Of a DNA stretch of 64,000 nt, positions 52,691 to 55,295 are shown one piece after another. The translations under genes and the position numbers were made by a program. Below the pieces are notes generated by a model, which saw only the letters and a program-made list of their open reading frames with translations, was not told the DNA's origin and ran no database searches. Source of the DNA: an uncultured SAR116 cluster alpha proteobacterium (GTDB lineage Bacteria; Pseudomonadota; Alphaproteobacteria; Puniceispirillales; Marisalimonadaceae); assembly GCA_902558885.1 (NCBI GenBank), contig CACEFQ010000002.1:1-64000 (forward strand), given 5' to 3'. Each line of letters begins with the position of its first letter. The stretch's first letter is position 1.

Positions 52691-53536
52691 TCAGTTCAGC
52701 CTTAAAATTATTACACCAAAAAATAAACCTAATATTAATAAACTTTTAGTTATATTTATCTTCTCTTTTAAGAAAATTAATCCCAATAAAACAGCAAATA
52801 GGATAGATGTTTCTCTCAAAGATGAGACCACAGCAATAGGTAAATATAAACATGCCCAAACAACTATACCATAAGCCACATAAGATGCCGTGCCACCTAT
52901 AAAAAAATACATTTTCCCAAAAAGAATTATTCTTTTCAAAATTTCTTTTTCTTTCCAACGCGCAAAAACATAAAAGATAAATCCATTGATTATAGTCGTT
53001 ACACTATAAAATCCTACAGGATTTTGTGTAACTCTTGCACCGTATCCATCTACAAGAGAATAGCTAGCAATAAAAAACCCTGTAATAATAGCCAAAACAA
53101 AGCCTTTAACCTCAGATTGTTTAAGTAGAAATTGTTTTAACCCATAAATTATCAAAGAAAATGAAATCAAAAAAATAGCAAAGATTTCTTGTTTTGAAAT
53201 TTCTTCATAAAAAAACAAAAAACTTACTATTAATATAATTAATGGAGACAAACCTCTTGCTATAGGATAAATCTCTGACAATTCTCCATATCTATATGCA
53301 TTTAGAAGGAAAACTTGATAAAAAAAATGTAATAAAGAGCTAGCTAATATGAATTTCAAACCATCTATGTTAGGCAATCCAAAAAATAAAATACCAATTA
53401 TAGCAAATGGAATATGACCTAGAACCACTGAAGTCATACTTAAGAATTTATCTTCAGATCCCTTTAAAACAAAATTCCAAGTAGCGTGTAGAAAAGCAGC
53501 AAATAAAACCGCAAAAATGATGAAAGTTTCTATAAT
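52691..53536 (-). CDS. EamA/DMT-type transporter, probable ATT start
   Basis: Drug/metabolite transporter superfamily protein with about ten helices. The first ATG (53437) would give 248 residues, but the same open frame continues upstream and encodes AVLFAAFLHATWNFVLKG, which matches the family's conserved first helix and H-x-x-W-N motif. Between the in-frame stop and that region there is no ATG, GTG or TTG. An ATT at 53536, six bases after AAAGG, gives 281 residues, the usual size. Conserved second-half EamA segment SLRETSILFAVLLGLIFLKEK. Substrate unknown. Confidence 0.8.
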   Translation of the reverse strand: MIETFIIFAVLFAAFLHATWNFVLKGSEDKFLSMTSVVLGHIPFAIIGILFFGLPNIDGLKFILASSLLHFFYQVFLLNAYRYGELSEIYPIARGLSPLIILIVSFLFFYEEISKQEIFAIFLISFSLIIYGLKQFLLKQSEVKGFVLAIITGFFIASYSLVDGYGARVTQNPVGFYSVTTIINGFIFYVFARWKEKEILKRIILFGKMYFFIGGTASYVAYGIVVWACLYLPIAVVSSLRETSILFAVLLGLIFLKEKINITKSLLILGLFFGVIILRLN

Positions 53537-53747
53537 AAAATACCTTTACTCTATAAGATTAGTTTAACAAATCTATTCTAATTACAGAAGCAAAGAGTTA
53601 TTTTTATAAAAATAGAATATGAAAGCTAAAAGTTTTGAGTTTCATTTAGTAAAATCTAACTTAATCTCATCAATTCAAACCAGATGAATTCTCAAAACTT
53701 TGTCTTTGTAAATAATGATTATTTCAAATTTATTACATTAAAAATAT
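53537..53747. other. Longest intergenic gap, contains a dispersed inverted repeat
   Basis: 211 bases between the ThDP-enzyme gene and the DMT gene, both on the minus strand. It holds an 11-bp inverted repeat (53629-53639 and 53691-53701) enclosing a 51-nt spacer that can itself form a short TCATC/GATGA stem. No tRNA, known riboswitch or convincing ORF was seen. It may carry the DMT promoter and the 3-prime end of the upstream transcript. Confidence 0.4.
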
Positions 53748-55295
53748 TTAAATCAAAACTTCAATTAGAAATGGACCTTTTTCTTTAAGTCCATGTTTAA
53801 AATATTTTACTAAATCTTCAATATTATCAACTTTAACAGCGTCAACTCCCATGCCCTTTGATATAGAGACCCAATCTAATGCTGGATCTTTTAAAGACAA
53901 CATTTCCATTGCTGATTTTCCTGGGTTATCAACACCTACATTTGTTAATTCTCCTTGAAGGATCTTGTAACTTTGGTTTGCAAAAATTAATATAACTATA
54001 TCTAAATTTTCTCTTGCCATAGTCCATAAAGATTGGACAGTATACATAGCGCTTCCATCACCTTCTAAAGAAATAACTTTTTGATCAGGAGATGATATTG
54101 CCGCACCAATCGCTACAGGCATACCAAATCCTATAGACCCTCCACAATTATTTAACCATGTATGTGGGTGTGATCCTGAGGTTTGATAAAAGAATTCTCT
54201 TCCAGTAGTTACAGATTCATCAACTATGATAGCATTTTCTGGGATTAAAGCACCTAATACCATTCCCAATGACATTGGGTTAATTGGACCTTTAGGAATA
54301 TCCGGCATATCAAATTTTGAAATAGTACTTGGAGTGTTATTTGATATTCCAATCTTATCTGATAACTCTTCAATAACTGTAGTTATATCATCTGATATAG
54401 AAGCTAATTCAAAGAATTTAGTAGTATCTTGTGTTAAAACTCCAGGCTTATTTGGATATGCAAAAAAAGCGACTGGTCGTCTAGCTCCTATTATTATAAT
54501 GGTGTCAAAGTCTTTAAGAACTTCAACTGCTTTATCAACGACGTACGGTATTCTTACTGAATTTATTCTTCCCGCACCTTTATCTAAACGAGCATTAAAC
54601 CAATCAGTTTTAATTGGACAGCCTATTTTGTCCGCTATTTTTGCCAATTTAATAAGGTTGTTTTCTTCTAAAGCCTCACCGCCAACAAGAATTAGAGGAT
54701 TCTTTGCATCTTGAAGTAATAAAATTGCTTCGTCTATTATTTTAGAAGAAACTATCTTAGATTTCATATTTAACTCAATCGACTCAATTTTATTGCCTTC
54801 ATTCCATGCGGTATCACCAGGTAAGATTAAAGTTGCAATTTTCCCAGGTTTTACATTTGCATGTCTAATAGCTTCAGCACCATCCTTCGCAATATCTTTT
54901 GAAGATTTACTTGTTTTTACCCAATGGGAAACTGGCCTTGCTATGCCTTCAATATCAGAAGTTAAAGGAGCATTTAATTTTATATGATCAAGAGCGTGCT
55001 CGCCTACTATATTAACAATTCCTGAGTTAGCTTTTTTTGCATTATGCAGGTTTGCAAGGCCATTTGCTAATCCAGGACCTAAATGTAGTAAAGTTGAAGC
55101 TGGCGACCTTCTCATTCTAAAGTAACCGTCAGCAGCACCAGTAGCACATCCCTCAAAAAGACATAAAACGCTTCGCATATTTTGATATTTATCTAAAGCT
55201 GCAACAAAATGCATTTCTGATGTTCCAGGATTAGTAAAACAGACATCAACATTACCTTCTAATAAAGTACCAACTAAACTTTCTGCTCCGTTCAC
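53748..55295 (-). CDS. Thiamine-diphosphate enzyme, acetolactate synthase large-subunit-like
   Basis: ThDP-dependent decarboxylase/ligase of about 515 residues. N-terminal PYR domain with the activating glutamate in CLFEGCATGAADGYFRM, and C-terminal PP domain with the ThDP motif LEGDGSAMYTVQSLWTMA...IFANQSYKIL. Central domain VGGEALEENN. No regulatory small subunit is nearby, so it is probably a 2-keto-acid decarboxylase or lyase (benzoylformate/acetolactate type) rather than ilvB. I use the GTG at 55295, five bases after GGAGG, over the TTG at 55307. Confidence 0.87.
   Translation of the reverse strand: MNGAESLVGTLLEGNVDVCFTNPGTSEMHFVAALDKYQNMRSVLCLFEGCATGAADGYFRMRRSPASTLLHLGPGLANGLANLHNAKKANSGIVNIVGEHALDHIKLNAPLTSDIEGIARPVSHWVKTSKSSKDIAKDGAEAIRHANVKPGKIATLILPGDTAWNEGNKIESIELNMKSKIVSSKIIDEAILLLQDAKNPLILVGGEALEENNLIKLAKIADKIGCPIKTDWFNARLDKGAGRINSVRIPYVVDKAVEVLKDFDTIIIIGARRPVAFFAYPNKPGVLTQDTTKFFELASISDDITTVIEELSDKIGISNNTPSTISKFDMPDIPKGPINPMSLGMVLGALIPENAIIVDESVTTGREFFYQTSGSHPHTWLNNCGGSIGFGMPVAIGAAISSPDQKVISLEGDGSAMYTVQSLWTMARENLDIVILIFANQSYKILQGELTNVGVDNPGKSAMEMLSLKDPALDWVSISKGMGVDAVKVDNIEDLVKYFKHGLKEKGPFLIEVLI

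Follow-up and report, generated by a model that had tools for sequence, protein, structure and literature searches.

A DMT-family transporter gene of the marine SAR116 cluster with a probable AUU start codon, and further candidate AUU/AUA starts in its genus

The window analyzed here is the whole 64,000 nt stretch at the beginning of contig CACEFQ010000002.1, from the assembly GCA_902558885.1 of an uncultured SAR116 cluster alphaproteobacterium. On its minus strand lies a transporter gene that has no in-frame ATG, GTG or TTG (collectively NTG) from the in-frame stop codon upstream of it down to the ATG at 53437. The minus strand around 53536 reads TAA AGG TAT TTT ATT ATA GAA ACT TTC, and the relevant features are the following:

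52691..53536, minus strand: DMT/EamA-family transporter gene, 281 codons plus stop when counted from the ATT, frame open
53534..53536, minus strand: ATT, the most likely start codon (codon 0), from the codon comparison within the genus and genus g3
53531..53533, minus strand: ATA, the alternative start (codon +3), aligned with ATG/TTG of other homologues
53543..53547, minus strand: AAAGG, Shine-Dalgarno-like, with a spacing of 6 nt to the ATT and 9 nt to the ATA
53548-53546, minus strand: in-frame upstream stop TAA, 12 bases before the ATT
53435..53437, minus strand: ATG, first canonical in-frame codon (residue 34)
53542..53598, minus strand: predicted leader hairpin pairing the AAAGG, from the consensus fold of five close relatives

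The original prediction had placed the start at the ATT, six bases after AAAGG and within a stretch lacking canonical starts; our rereading of the minus strand gave the same coordinates, with AAAGG at 53547-53543. The encoded protein contains an EamA domain (61.8 bits against a Pfam cut-off of 28.2), and its AlphaFold model (mean pLDDT 92.8), for which LicB (7paf_A) was the best fold match in the PDB with a TM score of 0.78, predicts the all-helical membrane fold of the DMT superfamily. The nearest named subfamily was NCBIfam TIGR03340 (phn_DUF6); the window protein has the fold and the EamA domain in common with these EamA/DMT transporters, but scored 122.2 bits against a cut-off of 288.15 and is therefore not filed in phn_DUF6. 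The model puts helix 1 at residues 2-25 and helix 2 at residues 30-52, in agreement with the earlier observation that the first helix and the HATWN motif lie upstream of the only ATG; both would be gone from a protein starting at ATG 53437. A terminator-like hairpin at 53771-53794 on the minus strand overlaps the 3' terminus of the acetolactate-synthase-like gene that lies upstream; shuffled sequences would give 0.0 such matches. A second match of this kind lies inside the transporter gene at 53496-53512.

The lack of NTG codons is by itself not remarkable, as 451 of 1489 internal windows of 33 codons taken from frames of contig C2 were also free of them; such stretches are common in an AT-rich genome, and the case therefore rests on conservation. 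Among 14 intact orthologues from the genus, 13, 6 and 29 of the 32 columns upstream of the ATG varied at codon positions 1, 2 and 3, respectively, and pN/pS for codons 1 to 32 was 0.18, while just upstream of the ATT the corresponding numbers were 12, 10 and 12 of 12 triplets. The 32 codons upstream of ATG 53437 thus evolve as coding sequence according to their substitution pattern, and this conservation extends to the proposed start but not beyond it. Of the 20 columns that are invariant among 16 aligned homologues, with identities down to 22%, 6 also fell upstream of the ATG. The possibility that translation begins at ATG 53437 and yields a shorter protein, with the upstream stretch untranslated, has in its favor that this is the sole canonical in-frame start of the window gene, that the methionine is kept in the relatives shown, and that 11 of the 14 intact orthologues have a TTG at codon 10-15. 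The third-position variation, the low pN/pS, the invariant columns and helix 1 all speak against it, as does the ATG found at codon +3 in distant homologues (see below), and we rejected this start as extremely improbable. An upstream NTG start was likewise rejected, since the frame of the window gene is closed by the stop 12 bases before the ATT; an in-frame NTG ahead of any stop was found in none of the 14 intact loci.

We then surveyed the assemblies of 40 genomes of the genus, many of them incomplete, of which 22 gave some match to the transporter and 18 a clear copy, and compared the start region in 19 loci from 18 genomes. Codon 0 was ATT in 17 loci, ATC in one and GAA in one, and codon +3 was ATA in 17, ATC in one and ACA in one; in none of the 19 did an NTG occur from the upstream in-frame stop to codon 10, the kind of canonical orthologous start that would have contradicted the original prediction. 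An AGG precedes the start in all 14 intact orthologues listed. Many of the orthologues are close relatives, also within subclades, and these counts are therefore not independent; the third base of codon 0 is unexceptionally conserved, being equaled by 3 of the 11 invariant isoleucine columns of the same gene.

The same comparison bears on whether the missing start is a sequencing error or belongs to a decaying gene whose start was simply lost. The window's genome is an incomplete assembly (76% complete), and four copies in the genus (L041, L042, L044 and L018 in genomes G028, G034, G019 and G002) are frame-broken, each at a different place, which together with a clear copy in just 18 of 40 genomes indicates that the transporter is dispensable. 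The ATT, however, recurs in the assemblies of other genomes, among them named public records, so that a base error was rejected, and the 14 intact orthologues gave a pN/pS of 0.18 for one of the two parts tested and 0.26 for the other. We consider error or decay very unlikely.

Outside the genus the picture differed between close and distant relatives. In genus g3 of the same family both loci (L032 and L033) read ATC ACT at codons 0 and +3, the g4 locus (L034) reads GTA ATG, and the g2 locus (L035), which carries an in-frame TAA at +6, may be a broken copy or have its start at another site. Among nine loci from other families of the order, codon +3 was ATG in six and TTG in three, and L045-L063 (Desulfobacteraceae, Dehalococcoidia, Pandoraea and others) share the ATG at +3, which sits one codon further downstream in L064 and L065. 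The ancestral start was therefore apparently a canonical one at +3 that is gone from both the window's genus (g1) and g3. This raises the alternative that translation really begins at the ATA at 53533, which would derive directly from the ancestral start by an ATG-to-ATA change, and that the preceding ATT is incidental. The ATA column matches the ATG or TTG of the other families and more distant bacteria, ATA is present at +3 in 17 of the 19 genus loci at a spacing of 9 nt from AAAGG, the infC, clpB and tlyA genes of the genus read ATA, and in L023, a second copy in G039 with GAA at codon 0, only the ATA at +3 is usable. Against it, L015 has ACA at +3, both g3 loci have ACT and L005 has ATC, while at codon 0 each of the four reads ATT or ATC; L015, L032 and L033 must therefore start at codon 0. 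An ATT or ATC stands at codon 0 in 18 of the 19 genus loci and in both g3 loci, L023 and L035 being the exceptions. AUU 53536 is hence favored over the adjacent AUA, which we regard as less likely and, as the true start, improbable. The original prediction accordingly stands with regard to a non-canonical start, which is strongly supported, but had left the adjoining ATA, also a possible start, unmentioned. Overall, we assign a probability of about 80% to the reading that this is a genuine translated DMT (EamA) transporter gene with a non-canonical start, ATT or possibly the adjacent ATA.

We further explored the initiation region by comparison with 159 reference genes of genome G005. Predicted Shine-Dalgarno pairing with the 16S tail had a median of -4.2 kcal/mol for the transporter loci, -3.8 for the reference genes and -8.7 for infC. 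The initiation region of the window gene had an unpaired probability of only 0.17, compared with reference quartiles of 0.39, 0.48 and 0.58; the median over 14 transporter loci was 0.27, and 8 of the 159 reference genes were as closed. When the leader of the window gene was shuffled, 5 of 100 shuffles were as closed, and the corresponding numbers were 2 to 14 of 100 in six of seven orthologues tested; L007 was not closed (unpaired probability 0.46, 43 of 100 shuffles as closed). In the five close relatives no pair of the predicted hairpin had changed on both sides, so that covariation was not observed, and the leader has diverged about as much as four-fold degenerate sites, with no extra conservation. 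A regulatory leader is therefore merely suggested. A search of the leader for known RNA elements gave no Rfam match up to E=1, and a scan for sigma-70 promoters returned a single plus-strand site, where shuffled sequences gave 2.3.

Two scans addressed other genes of the genus. The looser one covered 198 genes with homologues on contig C2 of the window's genome and flagged those in which comparison with any of three relatives showed a frame conserved over at least 6 codons ahead of the first NTG; it returned 60, of which 14 and then 16 were read codon by codon, and beyond the transporter only clpB stood out among those read. The stricter scan took 395 G005 genes for which sampled stretches of G033, G000 (the window's genome) and G034 contained homologues, and required that in both partners the frame be conserved for 8 or more codons ahead of the first NTG, a rule that is blind to non-canonical starts with an NTG a few codons downstream. 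It gave 24 candidates, all of which were read by codon, and four of them look real as judged by codon comparison: the window transporter, clpB, a second EamA-like transporter (here EamA2) and tlyA. Of the remainder, one was a frame over tRNA-fMet fragments and the others had an ordinary NTG start with conserved flanks. The three additional genes are located in the window's genome as follows:

G000:C2:145568-148135 (L151), minus strand: clpB, with a putative ATA/ATT start in the genus
G000:C6:67011-67742 (L288): tlyA, with a putative ATA start in the genus
G000:C25:2404-3261 (L330): EamA2, the second EamA-like transporter, with a putative ATT start in most genus loci

Among the 27 genus loci of clpB that were readable at the start, the other 3 of 30 being partial, the putative start codon was ATA 25 times and ATT twice, and the protein had its best match to TIGR03346 at 1132 bits, below the cut-off of 1232. 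An in-frame NTG upstream before any stop occurred in 1 of 26 clpB loci (L154). Outside the genus, 21 of 22 clpB loci (21 genomes) offer an N-terminal NTG, a TTG in g5 and an ATG in most, so that the clpB state looks derived in the window's genus; the remaining locus, L345, has no NTG in the part read and looks truncated. EamA2 had ATT in 27, ATA in 2 and ATC in 1 of 30 genus loci at its putative start, matched TIGR00950 at 70 bits (cut-off 230, and thus below it) and had an upstream in-frame NTG before any stop in 8 of the 30. For tlyA the putative start was ATA in all 30 loci and the protein passed TIGR00478 (222 bits, cut-off 186), but an NTG at codon 9 in 29 of the 30 makes it the weakest of the four; we kept it because the TIGR00478 match begins, with profile position 1, at residue 5, upstream of codon 9. 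Upstream in-frame NTG codons before any stop were present in 4 of the 30 tlyA loci (L285, L286, L299 and L307). Constraint on the third base of the start codon was clear for tlyA (none of 9 invariant isoleucine columns as conserved) and infC (0 of 10) and weak for the transporter (3 of 11), EamA2 (1 of 10) and clpB (7 of 33). The median unpaired probabilities of the initiation regions were 0.35 for EamA2, 0.43 for clpB, 0.46 for tlyA and 0.47 for infC, all but EamA2 being near the reference median of 0.48.

The gene for initiation factor IF3 itself was examined in the same way:

G000:C9:13155-13655 (L031, start at 1468): infC of the window's genome, ATA after a strong GGAG Shine-Dalgarno

Its start was ATA in 27 of 27 genus loci, which supports, and does not define, a class under IF3 control. 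A GGAG-type Shine-Dalgarno precedes infC in nearly all genus loci (L066 is without it at its contig position), and in 4 of these 27 loci an additional in-frame TTG lies ten codons before the start. In 27 infC loci of other genera and families we found ATA after GGA or GGAG, the start in some g2, g4 and g5 loci being one of two ATT/ATA codons; by eye, none of these 27 had a canonical codon at the start position, although L183 carries an ATG in frame nine codons before it and a downstream NTG occurs in several outside loci. The IF3 protein keeps the LRFRGRE motif, and the arginines 112 and 116 of the best-matching PDB IF3 chain are lysines here. The tRNA-fMet of the window's genome (L104:14903-14979, minus strand) carries a CAT anticodon and, in the anticodon stem, an A-U pair where E. 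coli tRNA-fMet has G-C, three G-C pairs being usual there. An identical gene was found in G005, G038, G043, G044 and G061; in the last three of these clpB offers ATG or TTG, and we therefore rejected an unusual initiator tRNA as the sole cause. No complete tRNA-fMet copy was found in G034 and some others of the 30 genomes searched. In the region G000:C2:121504-138979 (L104 and its neighbors) a single complete tRNA-fMet is accompanied by a run of several partial 3' copies, a pattern that repeated insertion of islands at this tRNA would leave, and similar clusters occur in other genomes of the genus.

In the proposed mechanism, the canonical start would have been lost in the SAR116 genus and in g3, and initiation would occur at AUU 53536 (or AUA 53533) behind an ordinary AAAGG Shine-Dalgarno in a partly closed leader. 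The initiator tRNA would decode AUU, with which, as with AUA, fMet-tRNA pairs imperfectly, and IF3 would reject most such complexes, so that one would expect a low output that increases, like that of infC, when IF3 is less active. Our best reading is thus poor initiation, from which we infer low expression and IF3 sensitivity. The earlier suggestion that translation is kept low or sensitive to IF3 is plausible, because infC of this lineage reads ATA, the initiation region is predicted to be closed, and precedents are described in PMC5472188 and PMC13009471.

These precedents are more numerous than the original prediction had it: infC is indeed a known bacterial gene with an ATT start, but pcnB, sigR (with GTC), cvfC1 and ccpN also belong on the list. 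The infC gene starts with ATT in E. coli and ATC in Streptomyces (PMC5472188) and with AUA in S. aureus (PMC13009471), pcnB of E. coli has an AUU start (a work cited in PMC13009471), and cvfC1, ccpN and citZ of S. aureus start with AUU, AUA and AUA, respectively (PMC13009471). The starts of cvfC1 and ccpN are conserved and backed by ribosome profiling and reporters, extended Shine-Dalgarno motifs accompany S. aureus infC, cvfC1 and ccpN, and in poor medium reporters with the non-canonical starts yielded about 10% of the AUG output, while in rich medium the ccpN start reached as much as 30% (PMC13009471). The Streptomyces sigR gene has a GTC start repressed by IF3, infC fidelity mutants are reported to increase the use of non-canonical starts 3- to 15-fold, and few bacterial non-canonical starts have been characterized experimentally (PMC5472188). 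An ancestral reconstruction counted a single AUG-to-AUU switch among 61,358 ancestral AUG starts (PMC5622118).

The SAR116 transporter resembles infC in having a start other than AUG, GUG or UUG that follows a Shine-Dalgarno and is conserved in orthologues, but the Shine-Dalgarno of infC is strong and its autoregulatory logic known, whereas the transporter has no known link to translation. It would resemble pcnB as an AUU-started, translationally limited gene outside the initiation factors, the evidence for pcnB being experimental and that for the transporter coming from sequence. With cvfC1 and ccpN it shares a conserved non-canonical start, but their Shine-Dalgarno motifs are extended and those of the SAR116 genes, except infC, are ordinary. 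The likeness to sigR would lie in a non-canonical start used as a low-expression, IF3-controlled switch; sigR differs in its GTC codon and in being a regulatory gene with experimental proof. On the comparisons made here, the transporter, clpB, EamA2 and tlyA can be regarded as new members of the known kind of gene with a conserved AUU/AUA start, and as unusually well conserved ones.

Whether the transporter start has a selected regulatory role is about an even question, and a weak start that is simply tolerated is about as likely as low, IF3-sensitive expression. A non-canonical start without regulation, in which relaxed selection in an AT-rich lineage tolerates AUU or AUA and initiation is merely weak, falls only slightly short of even odds: the Shine-Dalgarno strength of these genes is ordinary, unlike that of infC, they share no obvious pathway, and the start shifts look opportunistic. 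On the other side, ATA is kept in 30 of 30 tlyA and 24 of 26 clpB loci, compared with ATG in 135 of 159 reference genes. The wider idea that the genus maintains a standing set of AUU/AUA starts, kept after canonical starts were replaced, as an IF3-discriminated regulon tracking the IF3:ribosome ratio is tentative and on balance doubtful; its members would be the two EamA-type transporters, the disaggregase gene clpB, the rRNA methyltransferase gene tlyA and infC (4 of the 395 genes scanned, infC not counted). If the set is indeed under IF3 control, it would offer a natural test of the use of IF3 discrimination outside infC.

Among open-access PMC texts, titles and abstract openings searched with the phrasings used, we found no publication on these genes or on SAR116 starts. 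One marine genus has, besides infC, four genes with putative AUU/AUA starts, conserved in up to 30 species-level genomes per gene. Gene callers restricted to NTG would probably truncate or lose such genes, and the window transporter would lose a helix.

Changes of start codon within single genomes may also occur. A relaxed scan flagged 17 of 479 pairs (18 rows), and of five frames read, three look like possible single-genome switches: frames 419 and 345 of G005:C1 and frame 12 of G005:C3, with ATG in one relative and ATA or ATT in the other.
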